Below the pieces are notes generated by a model. The model was not told the origin of the DNA, did not search any database, and saw nothing but the letters and a program-made list of their open reading frames with translations. From a virus, in IMG/VR virus record IMGVR_UViG_3300044622_000057, positions 1 to 21,754 of that record: DNA of 21,754 bases. One strand, 5' to 3'. Of this stretch, positions 739 to 18,387 are shown in pieces. Numbering within the stretch: position 1 is the stretch's first letter; the number at the start of each line of letters is the position of its first letter. Both the position numbers and the translations under genes were made by a program.

Positions 739-966
739 TTACTTAGGTTCTACGTCAGACACCTTGGGTTCGGCCAGAGCTTGCTTCAGTAACTCAAAGA
801 AGGCATTGCGGCCCACTTGGAGTTGATCTACGTTGAATCTTGCTGAGTCTAGTTTGCGATCCAAATCTGCGACATGGTTCAACAGCGCTTGCTGCTGGGG
901 TGTCAGGTCTTCAAACTGGTGCTCAACGCCATCGATTGTCACAGGGGTCTTTTCATTTTTTCCCAT
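739..966 (-). CDS. Small conserved protein, DUF6447-like
   Basis: The 75-residue product has an N-terminal VTIDGVEHQFEDLTPQQQ element followed by a long helix (about residues 26-62) containing LDRKLDSARFNVDQLQVGRNAF. A short 'valine-threonine-isoleucine-aspartate-glycine' strand plus a coiled helix ending in a GRNAF/ARNAY-type motif is the pattern I associate with DUF6447-type small proteins, which occur in phages and proteobacteria and have no defined function. The start is supported by AAAGGA seven bases before the ATG. The gene stands between fibre genes and the membrane-type genes of the late operon. The DUF assignment is from memory and should be taken as probable only. Confidence 0.75.
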   Translation of the reverse strand: MGKNEKTPVTIDGVEHQFEDLTPQQQALLNHVADLDRKLDSARFNVDQLQVGRNAFFELLKQALAEPKVSDVEPK

Positions 967-983
967 GATGTTTCCTTTAATGC

Positions 984-1005
984 GCCACCAAGGTCGGGTG
1001 GTGGC
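984..1005. other. Hairpin in the spacer between two small late genes
   Basis: GCCACCA at 984-990 pairs perfectly with TGGTGGC at 999-1005 around an eight-base loop. It fills the short spacer between the 73-residue and 75-residue genes, lying in the leader of the latter. There is no U tract on either strand, so a transcript-processing or stability role is more likely than termination. Confidence 0.4.
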
Positions 1006-1011
1006 TTCCCG

Positions 1012-1233
1012 TTATGCTGATGCGGCTTGCAGTGGCGCTAAGTCTTCTGATGTCCAGAAATCTTTAGCCAGCATGATCTTGAGATGCTCTTTGTTACGAG
1101 CAACAGTGTCAGCCCAATCTTCAGCAGTCATGCCTTCTGGCTGTCCTGCGTTAATCAGGTTTACTGAGTCCATTGCGGCACTGTAGTGACGAGCAATTTC
1201 TTCTGCGGTTGGGGTTTGTGTTTCAATAGTCAT
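1012..1233 (-). CDS. Small hypothetical late protein, 73 residues
   Basis: The product is acidic and helical, with the pattern PTAEEIARHYSAAMDSVNLI near the N terminus, a central GMTAEDWADTVARN and a C-terminal FWTSEDLAPLQAA. It is immediately downstream of the long tail fibre gene, 17 bases away, with AAAGGA upstream of its ATG, so it is co-transcribed and probably co-translated with the fibre. Genes in this position are often fibre-assembly chaperones or phage-specific accessory proteins; I do not recognise a family with a proven role, and the fibre already carries its own S74 chaperone. Length and codon use match its neighbours. Confidence 0.75.
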   Translation of the reverse strand: MTIETQTPTAEEIARHYSAAMDSVNLINAGQPEGMTAEDWADTVARNKEHLKIMLAKDFWTSEDLAPLQAASA

Positions 1234-1250
1234 GATTTTCCTTTCAGGGG

Positions 1251-4200
1251 TTAAAGTGCGGCAATTACAAATGCCAATAGTTCTTCATAGCGCAATCCAA
1301 GTCGTGTAACTTTTATTGCATTTGGCGTGTCTTCTGTGTAATGCACAAGGTCTATTCCTTTAGCCTTACCGTCAACCTCATACCAAGTGTCAGAGCAGAA
1401 TAAAGCATATCGTGCTGGGTCTAAGCCTTCTGCAACAAAAGCGGCTTGTACTTCTTGAGCAACAGCACCAACGTGAATACGGGCGGCATCACCTTTTTTA
1501 GCAACAGCATCTTTAAAACGATATTTCTTGATGAGAGACTTAATTGCGACAGCCACACGCTTTTCAGCGTCATCAAGTGAAGCGATGTCTTGCTTTTGAT
1601 TTACATCTGATGTGTTAATTGTGCCTGTTGTAGCGTAAACAGTTGTCCAACGATATGAAGCCGCACCTAGTCCCATTGCATTGTCAGTGCCCGGAATAAA
1701 TTGAACACCATCATTTTGAACAAATCTACCACTGGTTGCCGAGCCGTTTGCAATAAAACCAATTTGTCCATCCCCATCAGACAGCACGATGTGGTTGCTT
1801 GCTGTGCGAATGTCTAAGCCACTTTGGTTGCCGCTGTAAGCACCTAGGATGGTGTTCTTAGAACCTGTTGTAACTAACCACCCCGCACCATATCCAGACT
1901 GACCAGAACCCACAAAGGTGTTGTTACTGCCTGTTGTTAAATAATATCCAGCAACAACACCAAGCAATGTGTTTGAACTCCCAGTGGTAATGCTATAGCC
2001 TGATTGCGCCCCTGCAATTACATTGTTAGTAGCCGTTGTTCCGGTATACCCAGCTTGCCATCCAACTGCGGTGTTGTTATTTGCTGTGGTGTTGGCGTAC
2101 AAGGCTTCTTTACCAACAGCTACGCTACCACTACCAGTTGTGTTGAACACTAAAGCATCGTGACCAACACCTGTATTGTTACTTGCTGTGGTGTTATTGC
2201 GTAGTGCGTTTAAACCGATTGCAGTTACGCTTGAACCCGTTGTGTTTGAATAAGCCGCACCATAGCCCACTGCCGTATTGTTGTTCGCTGTAGTGTTGTT
2301 CCGAAGTGCCGCCATGCCAATGGCTACGTTGTACGAACCAGTTGTGTTAGCGGCAAAAGTAGCTTGGCTTGCGGCATCATTACCACCCATAGCCACGTTG
2401 TGTTGACCAGACGTTGTAGCGCTTGCTACGCCATATCCAACAGCAGTATTGTTGTTAGTTTGTACATTAGCCAAAGCTGAATAGCCAACAGCAGTATTGT
2501 TGGCGATAACGCCAGAGTTTACGAATACTTGGAAACCAACCCCCGTGTTATAGCTACCAGTTGTGGCGTTTTGAGCCACAATGCCACCAAGGTAGGTATT
2601 TTGAGTACCAGTCGTGTTGGCGTACCCCGCTTGATAACCTACAGCAGTATTGTTATTTGCTGTGGTGTTAAAAGACAAAGCCCCAGAGCCAACTGCCGTG
2701 TTTTGTGAACCAGTTGTATTGGTTCCCATTGTGGATTGACCACCAGAATCAGGGCCACCAATTGCGGTGTTGTAAGAGCCTGTAGTAGTGCTGTATAAAG
2801 AAGTTTTGCCTAAAACAGTATTGCTAGTTCCAGTCGTGCCGCTATAACCCGCCTGATATCCTACAGCAGTGTTGTTAGATGCTGTGGTGTTGGCTTGTAG
2901 GGCATCGTTTCCAATGGCAACGTTTGATGAACCGCTGGTCAGGTTTCTGAGCGCAAATGCACCAATAGCGTTATTGAAGTTGCCAGATACAGCACCTGAA
3001 AACATTGGTCGATCACCAATTGCTACGTTCTGTGCCCCTGTGGTGTGACTGTAACCAGCTTGGTATCCAAGAAATACTGAGCTATTTCCTGTAGTATTAC
3101 TGTAAGCAGATTGATAGCCTACAGCAGTGTTGTTAGATGCTGTGGTGTTGGAGTTAAGCGCTTGACGACCAATAGCTGTGTTATTTGAACCTGTTGTGTT
3201 TATATAAAAAGCGTTGTCACCAATAGCAACGTTTAGCGTACCAGTTGTGTTGCTAAATGCGGCAGCCGTTCCTACAGCCGTATTTGATGCACCTGTAGTG
3301 TTACTAGCTAAAGCAAATGAACCAACCGCTGTTGTCTGTGCCGCAGTATTGGCGTATCCCGCCTGATAACCCACGGCAGTGCTATTTGATGCTGTGGTGT
3401 TAGAAAACAAAGCACGATAACCTTGCGCTGTGTTGTTTGCGCCTGTTGTATTAGCAAAAAGCGTTTGCTGACCACTGCCAGAGTTATAAGATGCAGTCGT
3501 ATTGAGTTGCAAAGAACCTAGACCAAAAGCCGAGTTGTATTGACCAGTTGTATTTGAAAACAAAGCCTTCCAACCCATAGCAGTGTTTTCTGCACCAGTT
3601 GTATTAGCAAATCCCGCTTGATAGCCAACTGCCGTGTTGTTTGACGCTGTGGTGTTAAGAGTGAGTGCTTGATAACCTACAGCAGTGTTTTCTGATGCTG
3701 TGGTGTTGGCTTGGAGTGCAAAAGTACCAACACTGGTATTTGCCGCACCGCTTGTGTTGTTGATTAACGCCTCGCTACCAACTCCCGTGTTGTTGCTTGC
3801 GGTGCTGGAGTAAAGCGCCCGTCGACCCAGAGCAGTGTTGTCGTTGCCTGTAATGTTTGTAAGTAGCGCCTGCTGTCCCAAGGCAACATTTGCCCCACCA
3901 GTCGTATTAGCCGCCAAAGCACTAGCACCCACCGCAGTATTGGTAGACACAGCACCTGCACCACGGCCTACTGTTAGACCATAAACAGTCAGGTCAGTAC
4001 CAGAGTACAACAGGTTAGCCGAATCAACCAACGCACCACCGCTACTTGCGTAAACCACACGACCCGAAGTCAAGCCCGAATCAGCAAGGTCAGCAACCGT
4101 CAAGCGTGTGCCGTTGAATGTCATGTTGGCAGAGTCAACTAACAAACCGCTGGTGCTTGCGTATGGAACTCGCGTAGCGGTCAAAGAGTTAACGGTCAAA

Positions 4201-4646
4201 TTGCCCGTCACTGTCAGGTTTGTAAATGTGCCCGAGCCAGAAGTGTTACTCACCTTCACAAAGTCAGAACCATTCCACGCACAAACAGCAGACTCACCAG
4301 CAACAATGGTCACACCAGTCGTTGGGCCAGCACCTACCAACTTAACAGAGAAGCCGCCTGTGGTGGCGTTGATAACCGTATAAATCTTTGACTGCGCTGG
4401 CGCTGTAACCGTACGCAATGCCGTACGCGCACCTGAGAACAAGAGAATCGCTTGACGAGCCGTATTTGCAGCGCCCGTGGTTGTGGTCAGTGTGACATCA
4501 GTATCAGTACTAACGTTGGTTGTACCCGCAACAGAGGTGTCCAGAAGAGATGTAATGCTGTTGTTTACAGTGTCACCCCAAGTGCCGCTCAATTCGCCTG
4601 TGACTGGAAGGGCCAGACCCAAGAGTGATGTATATGCTGTAGTCAT
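1251..4646 (-). CDS. Long repeat-rich tail fibre with S74 self-cleaving chaperone domain
   Basis: This 1131-residue protein is a receptor-binding tail fibre or spike. Residues 1-130 form the N-terminal module seen on many phage fibres (YTSLLGLALPVTGELSGTWGD, then VNNSITSLLD), probably the virion attachment part. Residues about 140-230 are a linker with two LVDSAN-type repeats. Residues about 235-950 hold roughly 41 copies of a 17-residue repeat with consensus NTAVGYQAL..NTTGS, resembling the YadA-type trimeric adhesin head and predicted to form a long beta-structured trimeric shaft. Residues about 1005-1131 match the peptidase S74 intramolecular chaperone: the Ser-Asp at 1013-1014 (TSDVNQKQDI) fits the autocleavage site, followed by the HVGAVAQEVQ and LRYEELLAFVIAAL segments. 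In the S74 family the domain trimerises the fibre and is then cut off. AGGAG lies seven bases before the ATG. Confidence 0.93.
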   Translation of the reverse strand: MTTAYTSLLGLALPVTGELSGTWGDTVNNSITSLLDTSVAGTTNVSTDTDVTLTTTTGAANTARQAILLFSGARTALRTVTAPAQSKIYTVINATTGGFSVKLVGAGPTTGVTIVAGESAVCAWNGSDFVKVSNTSGSGTFTNLTVTGNLTVNSLTATRVPYASTSGLLVDSANMTFNGTRLTVADLADSGLTSGRVVYASSGGALVDSANLLYSGTDLTVYGLTVGRGAGAVSTNTAVGASALAANTTGGANVALGQQALLTNITGNDNTALGRRALYSSTASNNTGVGSEALINNTSGAANTSVGTFALQANTTASENTAVGYQALTLNTTASNNTAVGYQAGFANTTGAENTAMGWKALFSNTTGQYNSAFGLGSLQLNTTASYNSGSGQQTLFANTTGANNTAQGYRALFSNTTASNSTAVGYQAGYANTAAQTTAVGSFALASNTTGASNTAVGTAAAFSNTTGTLNVAIGDNAFYINTTGSNNTAIGRQALNSNTTASNNTAVGYQSAYSNTTGNSSVFLGYQAGYSHTTGAQNVAIGDRPMFSGAVSGNFNNAIGAFALRNLTSGSSNVAIGNDALQANTTASNNTAVGYQAGYSGTTGTSNTVLGKTSLYSTTTGSYNTAIGGPDSGGQSTMGTNTTGSQNTAVGSGALSFNTTANNNTAVGYQAGYANTTGTQNTYLGGIVAQNATTGSYNTGVGFQVFVNSGVIANNTAVGYSALANVQTNNNTAVGYGVASATTSGQHNVAMGGNDAASQATFAANTTGSYNVAIGMAALRNNTTANNNTAVGYGAAYSNTTGSSVTAIGLNALRNNTTASNNTGVGHDALVFNTTGSGSVAVGKEALYANTTANNNTAVGWQAGYTGTTATNNVIAGAQSGYSITTGSSNTLLGVVAGYYLTTGSNNTFVGSGQSGYGAGWLVTTGSKNTILGAYSGNQSGLDIRTASNHIVLSDGDGQIGFIANGSATSGRFVQNDGVQFIPGTDNAMGLGAASYRWTTVYATTGTINTSDVNQKQDIASLDDAEKRVAVAIKSLIKKYRFKDAVAKKGDAARIHVGAVAQEVQAAFVAEGLDPARYALFCSDTWYEVDGKAKGIDLVHYTEDTPNAIKVTRLGLRYEELLAFVIAAL
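1790..3945 (-). repeat. About 41 tandem 51-bp repeats encoding the fibre shaft
   Basis: The coding sequence repeats with a 51-base period (17 residues), with occasional units of 16 or of 19 to 23 residues. Units have diverged, but blocks stay nearly identical: the 33 bases at 2861-2893 and at 3119-3151 are the same. Units ending in TAS or TAN are usually followed by one beginning NNTAVGYQ, giving a higher-order pattern that suggests past recombination between units. Confidence 0.85.
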
Positions 4647-4655
4647 TCAATGCTC

Positions 4656-5438
4656 CTAATTTGTGTCGATTTGATTCCACCCAGCGCTTTGAGTGTTGTC
4701 AATCTGTGCCCAGCCCGAAGACTGCACGTTGTTAATATTTTGCCAGTTTGCGGTCTGCGTGTCATCAATAATTTCCCACAAAGGCCGCCCAACTATCAAA
4801 TCCGATATCGTTGCCAGCTCCACAACCGAAGCCCTAAACAAAGCCAGCGCCGCCGCTACATCAGCTCCTGTTGCAGTCTCATTGATTGTCGCCCCGTATG
4901 TCGGGATGGAACTAACCACATCACTTCCACTGGCCGACTCACTGACCGATGCATTAACAGCAAAATTGCTCGATATCGCATCAGATCCAGTTGCACTCTC
5001 AACAATATACGCTAAGAATGTGAACGCTGATGCAGTCGCATCTGTACCCGTTGCGCTCTCAAGAATCGTTCCCAAGAAGTTGGCAAACGCCGCATCCGCA
5101 TCAGACCCAGTAGCCGTTTCAGAAACAGACACCCCATACGTTGGGATAGCACTAATCGCATCCGATCCCGTACTTGACTCACTTACCGCAGACCTAAATG
5201 TGGCCGTTGCACTTATTGCGTCTGAGCCTGTACTTGTCTCGCTGACTGCCACACCAAATGTAGCCAATGCGCTAATAGCATCTGATCCCGTGGCAGTCTC
5301 ACCAACCGCAGAAACTAAACTAACAACTGATGAATCGGCATCCGCTCCTGTCGCAGTTTCAGCAACATCCCGGTCATATACTGAATTACCCCACCCAGCT
5401 TGACCCCATGTGCCTGAACCCCAGCCGCCATCAGACAT
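4656..5438 (-). CDS. Repeat-rich tail or fibre-associated structural protein
   Basis: The 260-residue product has three parts. Residues 1-22 are Gly/Trp-rich (GGWGSGTWGQAGWGNS), a type of N terminus I associate with phage tail-surface proteins. Residues about 25-215 contain ten degenerate copies of a roughly 20-residue repeat built on V.ETATGSDAISA, with alternating Ser/Thr/Gly turns and Ala/Val strands, compatible with a beta-solenoid or fibrous fold. The last 32 residues contain three short Trp repeats (NWQNINNVQSSGW, then AQIDNTQSAGW and NQIDT). No enzyme motif is visible. It starts two bases after the 192-residue gene and is followed nine bases later by the long fibre, so a tail-fibre, fibre-adaptor or adhesion role is inferred from structure and position. 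Confidence 0.8.
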   Translation of the reverse strand: MSDGGWGSGTWGQAGWGNSVYDRDVAETATGADADSSVVSLVSAVGETATGSDAISALATFGVAVSETSTGSDAISATATFRSAVSESSTGSDAISAIPTYGVSVSETATGSDADAAFANFLGTILESATGTDATASAFTFLAYIVESATGSDAISSNFAVNASVSESASGSDVVSSIPTYGATINETATGADVAAALALFRASVVELATISDLIVGRPLWEIIDDTQTANWQNINNVQSSGWAQIDNTQSAGWNQIDTN

Positions 5439-5439
5439 T

Positions 5440-6018
5440 TCAAGCTGCTAAGCTAAATGTGTAAGTTACAGAGATGATGTCACCAGACACAACCGAACGA
5501 TCACCGGGCGCACTAAAGTCAGCCGCTGAGAACAATGTGCCAGTCGTGCCATTCTTAGTGCTATCGCTTGTCAGGAACGCGCCACCAACAGTAGAAGTCG
5601 CATTGATGTTAAACGTAGCTGGAGAAGCCGCATTAGTCACCACAGAAGGGTTCGCTGTCGTAGCTGTTACAAACGTAGCGGCCACACGGGTTGCATTGCT
5701 GTAAGGAACAACTTCAGTCCAGCCAGCGTGAGAAGCCATCGTGTCACCAGCCGCAGGCGTATTGGACGCACCAGAACCATACAGGCCAATGTACCAAGTT
5801 GTGATCTGGGTTACTGAAGTCAAAGCGGTACCGGCCATGTAAGCCAAACCAGCATTAACCACCAAGTTCTTTGTGTCAGCAGACCACTTCAAGTTACCAT
5901 CTTTATCGTGGCACTCAATGTGGTAAACACCTGTAGCTTTAGCTTCTTCGCCCGATTTAGTACCGGCAATAAAACCGCTAGAAATGTGATCGGTTACTTT
6001 GAGTTTTTCTGTGGTCAT
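5440..6018 (-). CDS. Conserved phage virion-type protein, 192 residues
   Basis: Recognisable elements are GVYHIECHDKDGNLKW at about residues 30-45, NLVVNAGLAYMAG at about 51-63 and TTWYIGLYGSG at about 73-83, followed by a Ser/Thr/Ala-rich beta-type C-terminal half ending SVTYTFSLAA. This pattern recurs from memory in environmental phage genomes, always among tail and fibre genes, without an assigned biochemical role. There is no transmembrane segment or signal peptide. TAAGGA lies just before the start. It probably forms part of the tail surface or a small fibre-like component; a decoration protein is the main alternative. The following 260-residue gene starts two bases after its stop. Confidence 0.8.
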   Translation of the reverse strand: MTTEKLKVTDHISSGFIAGTKSGEEAKATGVYHIECHDKDGNLKWSADTKNLVVNAGLAYMAGTALTSVTQITTWYIGLYGSGASNTPAAGDTMASHAGWTEVVPYSNATRVAATFVTATTANPSVVTNAASPATFNINATSTVGGAFLTSDSTKNGTTGTLFSAADFSAPGDRSVVSGDIISVTYTFSLAA

Positions 6019-6027
6019 GGTGTGTCC

Positions 6028-6474
6028 TTAAGAGATGCGCACAATGGCGCTGTTTGAGTTGGCTATTGGGAATTCAATGGTGAATGCCGTGCCGTTGACT
6101 GTCTTGTCAGAGCCAAAGTCAAGGATGGCCACAGACTTGTTGCCCTGTGTGGCGTTGTAAATTAGCGCGGCTCTAGCCGTAAACGAAGCTGCTGCCCACG
6201 ATGTGTTGGCAAACGAGATGAAAGCCGTTGGGATGCTATAGCTGTTGTCGCTTGCCGTAGGCGAGACGCTGATAACCAAAGTGTTGCCGCCTGCCGTATA
6301 CCCCGTGCCTACGACTTCATTTAGTGTTGTGTACACCGTGGTCGTAGCGTTCAGATCAGCCGCGGCTGTGTACAGCGCAATCTTAAAAGTGTTGGGCGAT
6401 GTAGGGCCAAAGTTGTGAACCGCCTGCAATAGCTCGGTCTTAAACGATGTGGTGGCGGTCTGAACAATACTCAT
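6028..6474 (-). CDS. Conserved phage tail-surface or structural protein, 148 residues
   Basis: The product begins SIVQTATTSFKTELLQAVHNF and contains NTFKIALYTAAADLN at about residues 28-42, NEVVGTGYTAGGNTL at about 52-66 and AALIYNATQGNKSVAILDFGSDK as its core, ending in a strand-rich FTIEFPIANSNSAIVRIS. The 'FKxxLYTAxAxL ... GTGYTxGG ... DFG' layout is one I recall from uncultured phage contigs, located between the adaptor gene and the fibres. It is beta-rich with no enzyme motif. The ATG overlaps the stop of the adaptor gene by four bases, so the two are translationally coupled. Function is inferred only as a virion component. Confidence 0.8.
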   Translation of the reverse strand: MSIVQTATTSFKTELLQAVHNFGPTSPNTFKIALYTAAADLNATTTVYTTLNEVVGTGYTAGGNTLVISVSPTASDNSYSIPTAFISFANTSWAAASFTARAALIYNATQGNKSVAILDFGSDKTVNGTAFTIEFPIANSNSAIVRIS

Positions 6475-7163
6475 ACCACTCCTCTATTCTGAGGTAGCGG
6501 TGCCACACGAGACTGTCCACTTCTGTAGCTGTCGGAACGCTCCAGACCATCACCCAAACGTTTAGCCATTTGAAGGGCTTCTTTGTACTTGCCATCATAC
6601 AACTGCATCATGTCGGTCTCACCCTTCATGAATGTGTACGCTTCTACCAGTGTGCCGTACAGCAACACCGAATCAAAGTTATCGCCAAGCCACGAAGTGC
6701 CTGCAGTCACGATAGACTCTGGGTAGTAGTAATAGTGCAGTTCAACGTAATACTGCGCATCAGGTGTTGGGCCAAGAATAAAAGACAACTCTGTCTCGTC
6801 ATCAGAGCGTGGGCCAAACAGTGCGTAGTACTTGGGGGTGCCTGTATCATTTGGGGTGGGGTACGCTTGACGGATAAAGTTAACGTCTTTATTAAGCAAA
6901 TACTCGTACGTACCAGTGTTTATATCCCCGCCTGTCACATCTGTAACAACAGCCATAGAGTACACCGCCAAAAAGTCTGATGGGCACTGCAGATATTTAT
7001 TGCTTGTTGTTGTCTGACCAGTCACGTTCTTGCGAATGGAAGGGAACTGAACCGAGTTGTAAATGCGCTGCTCAGCCTGCTCGATGAACGTGTTCATCTC
7101 AGAGGTCTCAAACGTATTCTCCGTGTAATCGGAGACCGCAGTTACAAGCTCAGTGTAGTTCAT
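6471..7163 (-). CDS. Head-tail adaptor protein, SU10 adaptor-like
   Basis: The 230-residue product has an N-terminal helical half starting MNYTELVTAVSDYTEN, with FIEQAEQRIYNSVQFPSIRKN at about residues 26-46, then a beta region (LQCPSDFLAVYSMAVV, later ELSFILGPTPDAQYYVELHYYYYPE) and a closing helix LVEAYTFMKGETDMMQLYDGKYKEAL. The 'Y..LV.AV.DYTEN', 'EQRIY' and 'YV..HYYYYPE' elements fit the family of the phage SU10 adaptor, which binds under the portal and connects it to the tail in short-tailed phages. Length is normal for such adaptors. The gene is followed by the 148-residue structural gene with a four-base overlap. The family call is from recall, and the connector role is supported by the absence of any other head-tail joining gene of this shape. 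Confidence 0.8.
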   Translation of the reverse strand: MNYTELVTAVSDYTENTFETSEMNTFIEQAEQRIYNSVQFPSIRKNVTGQTTTSNKYLQCPSDFLAVYSMAVVTDVTGGDINTGTYEYLLNKDVNFIRQAYPTPNDTGTPKYYALFGPRSDDETELSFILGPTPDAQYYVELHYYYYPESIVTAGTSWLGDNFDSVLLYGTLVEAYTFMKGETDMMQLYDGKYKEALQMAKRLGDGLERSDSYRSGQSRVAPLPQNRGVV

Positions 7164-7166
7164 GTT

Positions 7167-7364
7167 TTACGCCATTGGGCCACGGGCCATCACGCCTTTG
7201 GTGGCGCATCCAGTACCGCGAATTTTAATGCCAGAAGTTTTAGTACCCTCGTAAGGGTTGCTACGCTCATTGGCCAACGATTGGTTAGCTTTCAAAGCTT
7301 GCTTGACAGGCATCTCACCAACGACGACGTTGGCAACTTTTGTGGGTTGCTTGTATGTGGCCAT
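7167..7364 (-). CDS. Tiny basic phage protein with RGTG..TKG..ARGPMA tail
   Basis: The 65-residue product is basic and Gly/Ala-rich. A first half (VANVVVGEMPVKQALKANQS) is followed by NPYEGTKTSGIKIRGTGCATKG and the terminal ARGPMA. I have seen this ending in small proteins of environmental phages, always in the late gene block. The GIKIRGTGCATKG segment resembles the DGIA.RGKT.G motif of two other genes in this window. No domain with a known role is visible; nucleic-acid binding or a minor virion component is possible given its charge. It is separated by two bases from its upstream neighbour and by two from the adaptor gene, and is clearly part of the operon. Confidence 0.75.
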   Translation of the reverse strand: MATYKQPTKVANVVVGEMPVKQALKANQSLANERSNPYEGTKTSGIKIRGTGCATKGVMARGPMA

Positions 7365-7366
7365 GA

Positions 7367-7558
7367 TTAGCCTCCACGACCAACAGAGCGCTGGTTCATA
7401 ACCTTGGCCATGTTGCGACCGTATTTCAGCATATCGCTGTTGGTCTTGCCGCCAGCTTTAAGCTTTGTAGGCTTTTTGCCGGGGTGCATGTTTTTCTCAT
7501 GCTTACCCACAGCAGACTTAATCATCTTCTTGTCTTGGGCTAAATCTTTTTTGTCCAT
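7367..7558 (-). CDS. Tiny lysine-rich conserved phage protein
   Basis: Of 63 residues, about a third are Lys, Arg or His. The visible pattern is KHEKNMHPGKKPTKLKAGGKT at about residues 19-39 followed by MLKYGRNMAKVMNQR. I recall the 'HEK..H.GK..TKL..GGKT...M..YGRNMA..MNQR' layout from many uncultured phages, without a function. The charge suggests contact with nucleic acid or another acidic partner, which is inference only. The gene follows the zinc-ribbon gene by nine bases with AGGAG in its leader. Confidence 0.75.
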   Translation of the reverse strand: MDKKDLAQDKKMIKSAVGKHEKNMHPGKKPTKLKAGGKTNSDMLKYGRNMAKVMNQRSVGRGG

Positions 7559-7567
7559 TTCAGGCTC

Positions 7568-7957
7568 CTATGAAATCGCTATCGTTACTGTACCAACTTG
7601 CACCGCTAATGCCAAGTAGTTTGGCGTTAGTCCATTGTCAAAATTTCTTGATCCACCAACAGGGTTCCAGCCCCACTGAATGTCTCGTGAACCACCCGTC
7701 AAAGAACCTTGCGAGTTCGGGCCAGCGGTTACATACGTTGTGTCCCGCCGAGGATTACGCACTGCTTGGGGGTCATCTACTGGATACATACCCAACTGCA
7801 ACTGCGGCTGATCTGGATCCCAACACGTAGGGCACACAAGCAAATTGTAAAGCTTTGTCTTGAGAACTTCTTTCTTCAAGGCAGTTAACTTGAACTGAAA
7901 ACCACAGCGATCGCACATGGCGATACTGTTTTTCCCAGAAGCAAACCGATTGCCCAT
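7568..7957 (-). CDS. Zinc-ribbon protein in the virion operon
   Basis: The 129-residue product has a four-cysteine zinc ribbon at its N terminus: CDRC at residues 15-18 and CPTC at 42-45, joined by a basic linker of about 23 residues. After it come QPQLQLGMYPVDDPQAVRNPR and a Gly-rich segment DIQWGWNPVGGSRNF, then a hydrophobic strand LALAVQVGTVTIAIS at the end. I recall this arrangement (zinc ribbon, then a PVDDPQA segment, then GWNPVGG) in environmental phage contigs; a structural virion role is likely because the Gly/Trp-rich tail resembles tail proteins, but a regulatory DNA-binding role cannot be excluded. Its ATG directly follows the stop of the 309-residue gene. Confidence 0.8.
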   Translation of the reverse strand: MGNRFASGKNSIAMCDRCGFQFKLTALKKEVLKTKLYNLLVCPTCWDPDQPQLQLGMYPVDDPQAVRNPRRDTTYVTAGPNSQGSLTGGSRDIQWGWNPVGGSRNFDNGLTPNYLALAVQVGTVTIAIS

Positions 7958-15849: not shown

Positions 15850-18387
15850 TTACCTTTTGGTTGGTCTTGGGTTTGCCGTCTGTTGACGGCTCTTAGCAAT
15901 GTCAACCCCTAACCGAACGCCCTCGCGTTCTTGTTCTGCCTCCAAGCGTTGTTCAGCTTGGCGGGATTGTTGTCCAGCTTTAAAACCTTCGAGCTGGTAC
16001 TTACCTTGCATCTCTTCTTCCTTGAGCCTGAGCTCATCGGCTTTAGTGGCAGCGTCGATCTGCGTCTTTTGCTGCTTGTTCTGCATATCTTGCTGTTTAA
16101 GAGCAAGCTCGGCTTGAGCCAACTGCATATCGGCCTGCGCCTTTTGCTGTTTAATCTGCAACTCTTGTTGCTTGATCTGCAACTCTTGCTGTTGCATCTG
16201 AAGCACAGGGTCTTGCGCTTGTTGCTGGGCTTGTTGCTGAGCCGCCTGCGCTTGGTTCTGCTGAGTCACTTGCTGAGCCGCTTGAGCCATCATGCCCGAC
16301 AAAGCCACCTCCAACTGAGGCGGGAGCTTCTCGTCTTCTGGCGGCAAAGACATGCCAAGCTGCTGCTCAATCTTCTGACGCATCATGAACCCAACGTGCT
16401 CTGCAACGTGCGCCATAAGCTCGGCCTGCATCTGCGGGGCTTTGGGGTTCTGACCAATCAACTGGGCAATTGTCGGGTCTTGGATCATCGCTGTGTGTAC
16501 AGTGATGTGAGACTGATGGTCTTGGTGCAAGAACGCCTTGACAGGTGAGAGCTTCAGAATGTTCTGGTTCTCAGTCACAGGGTCGGTTGGCCGCATGTCC
16601 TCTTCAAGCGGGATAAGCTTGTCTGCGTTCTTGATACCCAACACCTCCAACATGTTGCGGTGCAACTGCGGCAGGTCATAGATATCTGGAGCCATCTGCG
16701 CCATCTGAATAACGGCTTGGTACTGCACCACACGCTGTGACATGGTGGCCGCATTGGGATCAGACACGGGGATAACGTCTACATGCGCGTAGTCCGACTT
16801 CTTAGCGCGTGGGCCGTCGTCGCCTTCTGGCTCGTATGAGTATGTGTCATCTGTGTAGTCACGGATGATGTCACGCAGAAGCTGCAACTCTTGCTTTAGC
16901 GCGTAGTGCACACGGGCCTGCACAGCCGTCATCACTTTAAGCTGGCGCTCAAGGATGGCAAGCGTAGTTCCCACAGGAGCCTGCGCAGACATGTCGGACA
17001 CTTTCATATCCGCAGTCGCTGCAAAGCGACGGCCTTCGTCTACGATCTTGTCAAGCAGTGCGGCAAGAACCGCTGATGGCTCTTTATATGGCAGGGGCAG
17101 GATGCTGTCACGGATGGTGCCAGAGCCGATGTCTACGTCACGGAATTCACCCGGAGCGATTGGCGTGTCATCTCCCTTGATGCGCAGTCCTCTGGACTTG
17201 AGGCCACCGGGCAAGTTGGACAATGTTCCTGCATCGATGAGCTGGCGCATGATGCTTGTAGCGGATTTAGCAAAGCCTCCGATAAGATGGAACAGCCCGA
17301 AGCCATAAGCTCCAAAGCCCGGAATATACTGGTAGTGCACGAAGTGCTGGCGCTTGAGTTTGAGTGGATCATCTTCGTTCCAATTACGGCGAATAGCCAA
17401 AACATCGTTTGTGCCGCGAATGATTGTCACCACGTACGGAAGCGCGATGCCTGTCGGCTCGTCATCGTCGTCCAAGTCTTCGTGACCCTTGATATCCAAG
17501 TCAACGTGGCACTCAAGGAGCGTGAACCTGTCATCGTTCAGATCACTAAAGCCCGTCTCTTTGTCCTTGGCTTTCTGAATATCACCAACAACTTTGTCTG
17601 GCTCACCCAGTTCTACTTCACAGTAAAACCCTGCTTGCTGCAGTTTCAAAATTTCGTTCTTGGTCTTGCGCATTACGTGCGTGACGCGATAGCAAGTCTG
17701 AATGTCCGATGTGCCGTATGGCAGGATCATGTCTTCCGCAGGAATAAAGATCGATACTTGGCGGCCAAGCGCTGGGTCGTAGTACACCTTCTTAAATGCG
17801 GAGCCTGTGGCTGGCAGTGACCACAGCATGCGCTCATGCTCAGGACGGAACTCAACCATCTTCTCAGTAAGCTGATAGTTCATATCCGCTTCTACACGAG
17901 TAGCCGCTTCTTGCTTTTGCGGTGTCTCTTTACCAAGAATTTTGGTACGCACAGGGCCTTGTGCTGGGAATGTCTCGGTGATTGTCTCTGACTGGAAGCG
18001 CACAACAGCTTCTGTAATCATTGGGTGGAACACACCAGAGGCTCCGTTCCAAGGCTCGGTGCGCTCTTCCATCTGCAAACCCAAGAGCTTTAAGCCTTCT
18101 GTATAGGCTTTCTCCCAGTCCTTGCGGGAGCTCTTATCTTGCTCAATGTCGCTTGCCAAGTCGCTGGCCAGCGTCTCCATAGCACTCTCGTCCATGTACT
18201 CAGCCAAGTTAGCGTCAAAGTCTTCAGCAGACGGCTCGGCTGGCTCAATCTCAATCTCCATACCATCAATGCCAATCTTGACAGCTTCAGGATCAACGAT
18301 CTCGATCTCAATGGCAGACTCGTCCTGCGCCAGTTCTTCAAGTCCTTTTGGCTGTTGGTACAGCGCTTTGTCAATGTTCGTTGCCAT
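15850..18387 (-). CDS. Portal protein with Gln-rich helical C terminus
   Basis: The 845-residue product is the dodecameric portal through which DNA enters and leaves the head. An acidic N terminus (residues about 20-75) is followed by the P22-type portal core: SSRKDWEKAYTEGLKLLG with EERTEPWNGASGVFHPMI at about 85-125, RFQSETITETFPAQGPVRTK at about 130-150 and MLWSLPATGSAFKKVYYDPA at about 185-205. FVHYQYIPGFGAYGFGLFHL lies near 345-365, followed by GGFAKSATSIMRQLIDAGTL and LPGGLKSRGLRIKGDDTPIA. Residues about 690-845 are an unusually Gln/Ala-rich long helix (LQMQQQELQIKQQELQIKQQ and similar heptads), corresponding to the barrel that extends into the head in P22-like portals. AGGAA precedes the ATG. 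The size is within the range of large portals of podoviruses. Confidence 0.93.
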   Translation of the reverse strand: MATNIDKALYQQPKGLEELAQDESAIEIEIVDPEAVKIGIDGMEIEIEPAEPSAEDFDANLAEYMDESAMETLASDLASDIEQDKSSRKDWEKAYTEGLKLLGLQMEERTEPWNGASGVFHPMITEAVVRFQSETITETFPAQGPVRTKILGKETPQKQEAATRVEADMNYQLTEKMVEFRPEHERMLWSLPATGSAFKKVYYDPALGRQVSIFIPAEDMILPYGTSDIQTCYRVTHVMRKTKNEILKLQQAGFYCEVELGEPDKVVGDIQKAKDKETGFSDLNDDRFTLLECHVDLDIKGHEDLDDDDEPTGIALPYVVTIIRGTNDVLAIRRNWNEDDPLKLKRQHFVHYQYIPGFGAYGFGLFHLIGGFAKSATSIMRQLIDAGTLSNLPGGLKSRGLRIKGDDTPIAPGEFRDVDIGSGTIRDSILPLPYKEPSAVLAALLDKIVDEGRRFAATADMKVSDMSAQAPVGTTLAILERQLKVMTAVQARVHYALKQELQLLRDIIRDYTDDTYSYEPEGDDGPRAKKSDYAHVDVIPVSDPNAATMSQRVVQYQAVIQMAQMAPDIYDLPQLHRNMLEVLGIKNADKLIPLEEDMRPTDPVTENQNILKLSPVKAFLHQDHQSHITVHTAMIQDPTIAQLIGQNPKAPQMQAELMAHVAEHVGFMMRQKIEQQLGMSLPPEDEKLPPQLEVALSGMMAQAAQQVTQQNQAQAAQQQAQQQAQDPVLQMQQQELQIKQQELQIKQQKAQADMQLAQAELALKQQDMQNKQQKTQIDAATKADELRLKEEEMQGKYQLEGFKAGQQSRQAEQRLEAEQEREGVRLGVDIAKSRQQTANPRPTKR

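Follow-up and report, generated by a model that had tools for sequence, protein, structure and literature searches.

Exchange of modules at conserved DNA blocks as a probable source of variation in a coil-repeat tail fibre gene of an uncultured phage

How does a tail fibre gene with a long array of short protein repeats come to differ between related phages, and where along the gene are the differing parts joined? The question is raised by the 1131-residue fibre gene of IMG/VR record IMGVR_UViG_3300044622_000057, a virus record of 21,754 bases (the window, analysed over its full length) whose minus strand carries genes for terminase, portal, capsid and tail proteins. An earlier note, made from the sequence alone, had proposed that the repeats of this gene are shuffled by recombination. 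We propose, with a probability of about 0.7, that the fibre gene is a mosaic of exchangeable modules, swapped by homology-directed exchange at conserved DNA blocks. The anatomy of the fibre, its catalytic residues, the conservation of synonymous codons, the replacement of segments between close relatives, and an excess of similarity breaks at a block at the start of the shaft (the start box) and at blocks inside it are all observed; recombination at the boxes would be the cause of the exchange, and binding specificity may shift with the parts.

The gene is ordered as anchor, linker, 41-coil shaft, short tip and S74 chaperone (Table 1), and the shaft is bounded by two stretches of DNA, the start box and the end box. 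Start boxes were collected with a degenerate pattern specifying GRGAGAVxTNTA(V/L)G as protein, with third positions open, which returned at least 120 stretches and, with the loci found earlier, at least 123 distinct boxes. The 101 with enough upstream sequence fell into 13 upstream clusters (single linkage, E 1e-4; sizes 78, 5, 5, 3, 2 and eight of 1). Between clusters, 70-78% of start-box codons agree, where 28-31% are expected. With one representative from each of the 13 clusters, codon identity is 0.822 against 0.287 (standard deviation 0.019) in simulations drawing on each gene's own codons, none of 500 of which reached the observed value, and codons 20 and beyond lie at background. For the seven clusters closed at the 5' end with a start, identity is 0.837 against 0.300 (0 of 300 simulations); codons 20-33 stand at 0.433 against 0.332 (13 of 300), and background is reached from 34 codons on.

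The end box behaves in the same manner at the other end of the shaft. Sixty-seven closed tips formed seven clusters (sizes 51, 10, 2 and four of 1), between which end-box codons agree at 0.68-0.78 against 0.34-0.39 expected (890 pairs). With one tip per cluster the values are 0.767 and 0.773 against 0.381 and 0.342 (0 of 300), falling near background from 20 codons on. Ordinary vertical divergence, in which the array would change by slippage and point mutation and the boxes would be kept by protein constraint alone, fits the differing coil numbers of the relatives' shafts and the conservation of both boxes as protein. Protein constraint, however, fails to hold synonymous codons at the level observed here: in portal genes, used as a control, runs of at least 10 identical residues agree in their codons at 0.48 in the 70% protein-identity band and at 0.74 in the 90% band. 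Nor does simple descent sit well with tips and upstream parts that, outside the boxes, form clusters unmatched to one another by blastp at E 1e-4. We regard vertical divergence as a very improbable explanation.

Within the shaft, the earlier description of about 41 seventeen-residue repeats holds: in a hand register of residues 236-951, 33 of the 41 coils are exactly 17 residues long, and the remainder measure 16 (three coils), 18, 21, 22 and 23 (two coils). An anchor-chain coil finder calibrated on the window recovered all 41 coils together with two extra (43 for the window) and found at most 5 in any of 200 shuffled copies of the window protein; Tandem Repeats Finder did not report the coil array. 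The exact 33-bp identities noted between distant units proved to be a single pair, 34 bp long, at residues 499 and 585, so that the observation stands in the singular: other exact repeats in the shaft measure at most 20 bp (three cases), followed by one of 18 bp, and the exact pairs of 30-, 27- and 24-mers (5, 8 and 11, respectively) all derive from the 34-bp repeat. This one pair does exceed what codon usage would give, since none of 500 shuffles of synonymous codons among like residues reached 34 bp (maximum 28).

A third class of block conserved as DNA, the TAS/TAN-TAVGYQ coil, lies inside the shaft. Every xTAVGYQ coil is preceded by a TAS or TAN coil (6 of 6, against 0 of 29 at other junctions; Fisher p 1.2e-4), as the earlier note had it, but the rule cannot be turned around, because only 6 of 11 TAS/TAN coils are followed by xTAVGYQ. 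Across 184 fibre open reading frames (ORFs), GYQ comes after TA in 441 of 1028 instances and after TG in 92 of 2208. The codon identity of these TA-YQ blocks between loci is 0.66 against 0.36 expected, compared with 0.37-0.38 against 0.34-0.35 for TTG coils.

Relatives of the fibre were taken from three IMG/VR scans, the best 80 of each (240 loci, here given L numbers), all of them metagenomic contigs. Ninety-six loci, the window's own included, match its first 200 residues, and 28 fibres, again with the window, are complete (anchor match of at least 120 bits, coil tract and stop). Their coil counts run from 18 to 65 (18, 18, 24, 26 ... 56, 56, 65), which bears out the suggestion that shaft length varies between relatives; this length might, as the earlier note proposed, set reach or binding avidity. 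Because L187, L188 and L191, from three metagenome numbers, carry one fibre of 2964 bp (two copies identical, the third with 2 differences), 26 of the 28 are distinct. In L174, one of the two 18-coil fibres (6001-7671), an in-frame stop inside the shaft ends the ORF and the frame continues beyond it; in L099 the anchor is homologous and coil anchors are absent.

Replacement of segments is clearest where both neighbourhoods of the gene are shared. Among the 240 loci besides the window's, 12 match the window on both sides of the fibre gene (at least 85% both in the anchor, across about 404 bp, and downstream of the gene, across at least 150 bp); these represent 10 distinct fibres, since three of the loci are L187, L188 and L191. 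At E 1e-5, blastn finds the window's tip DNA in none of the 12, and in the shaft their best-matching pieces are 138-381 bp long at 64-76%. Their start boxes agree with that of the window at 82-100% in 11 and at 76% in L194. Identical number and order of repeats in all relatives, the outcome at odds with shuffling, was thus not seen: counts vary, and these shafts align only piecewise. Shuffling is further supported by the 34-bp repeat beyond codon-usage expectation. As an account of the gene, though, a shuffling of units is incomplete, for whole segments are replaced, anchor and tip are exchanged as well, and two DNA boxes bound the shaft.

The tip of the window itself offers an example. A stretch at 1039-1877 that takes in the end box, the tip and part of a 73-residue gene downstream matches L186 at 92.4%, yet L186 is otherwise remote: of seven window proteins only the adaptor matches, at 25%, and the anchor of its 717-residue fibre shows 33% identity to the window's over 39 residues (E 0.027), although single linkage nevertheless places the two anchors in one large cluster. 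To either side of this stretch, the window agrees with L163 and L191, not with L186. The window is therefore a mosaic, broken near the end box and again within the 73-residue gene. Around the fifth internal block, window positions 2779-2900 match L169 at 94% as DNA.

The plainest chimera joined within the start box is L289, whose upstream part is that of L308 (96% over 4506 bp) and whose downstream part is that of L310 (98.9% over 271 bp, to the end of L310); in the alignments listed at E 1e-30, L308 and L310 have 82 bp in common, at the start box. We considered whether such joins could be artefacts, contigs of different phages having been assembled together at conserved stretches. The exact run shared by L308 and L310 in the box is 63 bp, long enough to mislead a short-k-mer assembly, and for L289 alone an assembly error is therefore possible. 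The codon conservation of the boxes, in contrast, is present within each contig on its own, and the 12 loci that keep both flanks of one phage type around a different fibre would each need two wrong joins. The recurrence of one fibre under three metagenome numbers also argues against misassembly, which as a general explanation is the least probable of those weighed here.

If exchange occurs at the blocks, similarity between loci should break there. An all-against-all comparison of 177 oriented loci, recording the ends of alignments of at least 88% and at least 200 bp, placed 240 ends inside fibres. Of 84 right-end pairs, 24 fall between +40 and +79 as counted from the start box. Among the 22 left-end pairs that are not near the gene start, 8 are found within the 40 bp that precede the box. 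In the interior, chance would place 13.7% of ends on TA-YQ blocks, and 36 of 113 were observed to touch one. Polymorphic site pairs in or beside the start box, 1-45 bp apart, show all four combinations in 34 of 36 cases and r2 below 0.2 in 32 of 36, as expected if alleles have been reassorted.

Several points weigh against exchange at the boxes as the full account. The boxes are not the sole break zones: 47 of the 84 right-end pairs lie in the linker (bins -380 to -140), more than at the start box, and the region of the gene start (bins -760 to -540) accounts for 33 of 55 left-end pairs. The end box shows a small excess: 3 of 15 left ends fall in the 60 bp ahead of it, and 4 of 15 right ends fall between +60 and +99. 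The p-value for interior ends (6e-7) is optimistic, since loci recur among the pairs counted, which are not independent, and because a box is conserved, an alignment ending nearby is drawn to its far edge. Recurrent mutation could also cause the lack of linkage between box sites. Six of the 13 upstream clusters are open at a contig end or lack a start and may show linker rather than anchor. A weak codon excess also extends outside the start box (0.33-0.40 against 0.24-0.30 at -20 to -1), so that some loci share more than the box. Third positions 14, 17, 35 and 41 of the box are nearly fixed (117-120 of 123) and positions 8 and 29 are free, a pattern that shared exchange alone leaves unexplained. 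Of the phage annealases, ERF was found in 3 of 20 genome records and RecT and RecA in none of the 20, all of which may be fragments. Exchange was seen in no clone or isolate, all relatives being contigs. Many right-hand ends gather at two distances upstream of the start box, about 270-320 bp and 140-160 bp, which makes the linker (about 3969-4244 in the window) a further exchange zone.

The nearly fixed third positions beside free neighbours favour a different reading, in which the boxes are not just shared homology but selected nucleic-acid elements, for example a regulatory signal or the target of a dedicated recombinase or nuclease; so does the finding of one start-box copy in 16 of the 17 genome records that hold any. 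Other results speak against it. RNA structure was not clearly beyond mononucleotide shuffles in the 13 representatives (mean z -0.56 and -0.32), the five other reading frames were closed across the start box in 61 of 65 frame-by-representative cases, which also disposes of an overlapping gene, and Rfam gave no match at gathering scores over window positions 800-5000. The absence of a second copy in nearly all loci and records likewise speaks against it. Recombinases and nucleases were not searched for. We hold selected elements to be unlikely, less remote than descent or misassembly, and exchange by shared homology remains the preferred reading.

The copy number of the start box bears on further candidates. 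It occurs once in the window and once in 144 of 146 loci holding any, with two copies on one strand in the other two; the remaining genome record, possibly a fragment like the other 16, also has two on one strand. Usual presence as a single copy makes an inversion switch or a local array of cassettes less likely, and an invertible, phase-variable fibre switch was set aside since no second, inverted copy lies nearby in the 146 loci or 17 records. The two copies, or diverged copies, in L339 (6415, 8622), L343 (2615, 3799) and record G019 (196, 37825) perhaps mark two fibre genes. In bacterial and archaeal genome contigs one pattern of the box gave no exact match, and among 50,697 GenBank phage records blastn (E 0.01) found it in two, both from Manatee Spring.

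The exchange we propose would run as follows. The protein would be the receptor-binding tail fibre of an uncultured tailed phage, attached to the virion by its N-terminal 134 residues and continuing through a variable linker and 41 beta coils to a short tip; the S74 chaperone presumably aids trimerisation and would then release itself by a cut between T1012 and S1013. A short stretch of DNA at the first coil, another at and just after the last, and the in-shaft copies of a third are kept almost constant as DNA, even where their surroundings are unrelated. Phages meeting in one cell would recombine by homology at these stretches, swapping anchors, shaft segments and tips in frame and altering how many coils there are and in what order. 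Beside the three block classes, the linker and the gene start would serve as additional break zones.

The S74 end named in the earlier note is confirmed by Pfam, in which Peptidase_S74 covers residues 1013-1074 at 33.7 bits (cut-off 22), and by the catalytic residues. The solved S74 fibres nearest in sequence are 7y5s, 6eu4, T5 pb1 (4uw8) and K1F (3gw6). For the L-shaped tail fibre pb1 of T5, Asp1239, Arg1250, Thr1263, Ser1264 and Lys1269 are given as residues of the proposed mechanism (PMC4690869), and D988, R999, T1012, S1013 and K1018 of the window fibre correspond to them with equal spacing. Self-cleavage between T1012 and S1013 is predicted from these conserved residues, and the fibre probably forms trimers and binds a receptor. 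T5 pb1, the K1F endosialidase and the GA-1 neck appendage likewise have a C-terminal chaperone with Ser and Lys five residues apart and equal Asp/Arg/Thr spacing. T5 pb1 carries a bullet-shaped receptor domain before its chaperone, whereas the window fibre has only about 52 residues between the end of the shaft and the predicted cut site. None of the 27 other complete fibres with a homologous anchor and coil tract has the T5 pb1 residue set in equal spacing; they end in other S74-like ends or in tips without the motif. Tips of the latter kind in L191, L194, L181, L178 and L180 share PATQ.AS[SA][ND]ANTLDDYEEGT[WF]TP, followed by about 90-130 residues.

Two AlphaFold2 runs, of the whole fibre and of 14 coils, gave models with a mean predicted local distance difference test (pLDDT) of 62.9 and 64.4. 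The models suggest that the shaft is a solenoid with one coil per 17 residues, and do not settle its handedness or the trimer; in the single-chain model, pLDDT is below 50 over most of the S74 chaperone. The fold matches obtained in VIA with these moderate-confidence models were mostly parallel beta-helix proteins and tailspikes, the best having Z 19.8 (root-mean-square deviation, rmsd, 3.4; 295 residues aligned) and Z 11.6 (rmsd 2.6; 154 aligned), and Foldseek returned no match for the shaft models at E 0.001. Leucine-rich-repeat, pentapeptide and beta-helix matches in the fold searches were taken to reflect a common arrangement. The YadA-like heads of trimeric autotransporter adhesins also consist of short beta coils with conserved small residues, though their coils are about 14 residues long, against 17 in the window fibre. 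Pfam models of YadA or Hep_Hag head repeats gave no match at E up to 1, and YadA heads were absent from the fold-search lists, which is not grounds for excluding a YadA-type fold.

Exchange of adhesin parts at conserved motifs has precedents. In the T-even phages, Tetart reportedly described in 1998 how adhesin specificity is switched when conserved motifs within the distal tail fibre locus recombine; that adhesin is said to be a different protein from the window fibre, without a long coil shaft. The host range of tailed phages is set largely by their fibres. As in receptor-binding proteins with recombination motifs, a DNA motif at the anchor end of the window fibre class is conserved above its surroundings across different anchors. 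In six genera of Escherichia coli phages, conserved motifs around the tailspike receptor domain have been proposed as recombination hotspots, and in these lytic phages the downstream motif is placed in the noncoding region after the gene, with average identities of 63, 69 and 81% (PMC10408124). In the window fibre class, by contrast, the blocks lie at both ends and in the interior of a coil shaft, are all coding, and have codon identities of about 0.66-0.84. Variation in marine phage fibres is well known, with variable tail fibres in pelagiphage metaviromic islands, in the accessible account of which no conserved DNA joints are described (PMC3909814), and distant Alteromonas phages are reported to share tail fibres (PMC10579305). 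For most mosaic boundaries, conserved boundary sequences are said not to be identifiable (PMC3029335). Among the matches listed in a search of open-licence PubMed Central literature, no description of the boxes or of shaft exchange in this fibre class was found. What is new relative to the known motifs is the presence of coding blocks at both ends of, and inside, a long coil shaft, tight at synonymous positions.

Coordinates of the fibre parts are collected in Table 1. Columns of a 32-fibre alignment are almost invariant to about residue 133, and numerous similarity breaks lie directly beyond. The window terminase is about 52% identical over 87% of its length to that of Pelagibacter phage HTVC027P, first among the GenBank phage matches listed. 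For the whole fibre, 375 GenBank phage records match, all with less than 60% identity at their best places and none covering 80%. Fibres of the coil-repeat type match PHROG 23837 and 6002 ('head and packaging') and six 'tail' PHROG families. The 260-residue protein encoded directly upstream (4656-5438, minus strand) has short ETATGSDAISA-type repeats of its own; neither Pfam (E up to 1) nor PHROG (E up to 0.01) yielded a match for it. The sole repeat reported in the window by Tandem Repeats Finder, at 16144-16200, has a 21-bp unit and lies in the Q-rich C-terminal part of the portal gene.

Table 1. Parts of the fibre gene and its downstream neighbour, in window coordinates.
Feature	Position	Strand	Basis
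Tail fibre gene, 1131 residues	1251..4646	-	ORF; Pfam and PHROG matches
N-terminal anchor, residues 1-134, common to related phages	4245..4646	-	Alignment of 32 fibres
Variable linker from anchor to shaft, residues 135-226	3969..4244	-	pLDDT mostly below 50; many right-hand similarity ends
Start box GRGAGAVSTNTAVG	3927..3968	-	Synonymous positions kept across fibres with unmatched upstream parts
Shaft, 41 coils, residues 236-951	1794..3941	-	Translation register; predicted strand-rich repeats
Internal TA-YQ block 1, residues 314-328	3663..3707	-	Sequence register; block class conserved as DNA
Internal TA-YQ block 2, residues 331-345	3612..3656	-	Sequence register; block class conserved as DNA
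Internal TA-YQ block 3, residues 416-430	3357..3401	-	Sequence register; block class conserved as DNA
Internal TA-YQ block 4, residues 500-514	3105..3149	-	Overlaps one copy of the 34-bp exact repeat
Internal TA-YQ block 5, residues 586-600	2847..2891	-	Overlaps the other copy of the 34-bp repeat
Internal TA-YQ block 6, residues 660-674	2625..2669	-	Sequence register; block class conserved as DNA
End box ILGxxxGNQSGLDIRTASNHIVLSDGDG	1767..1850	-	Codons kept across fibres with unmatched tips
Mature tip, residues 961-1012, which would form the end of the fibre after removal of the chaperone	1611..1766	-	Alignment with T5 pb1 and other S74 fibres
S74 intramolecular chaperone, residues 1013-1131 and stop	1251..1610	-	Pfam; PDB relatives; predicted cut T1012/S1013
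73-residue gene downstream of the fibre	1012..1233	-	Similarity between window and L186 passes through the tip and stops inside this gene

In conclusion, the fibre gene probably owes its variation to the exchange of whole modules at conserved coding blocks. A wider possibility, which we put forward only tentatively and think rather doubtful, is that uncultured phages of different kinds draw on a common stock of fibre parts, joined through DNA adapters that they share at both ends of the shaft and inside it, the adapters being selected as DNA for exchangeability, perhaps with enzymes acting on them. In-frame exchange of fibre parts is seldom seen at the joint itself, and in this fibre class candidate joints are legible not only at the two ends of the exchanged part but also within it. 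If the proposed exchange is true, the boxes would allow repertoires of shafts and tips to be gathered from metagenomes by their joints.

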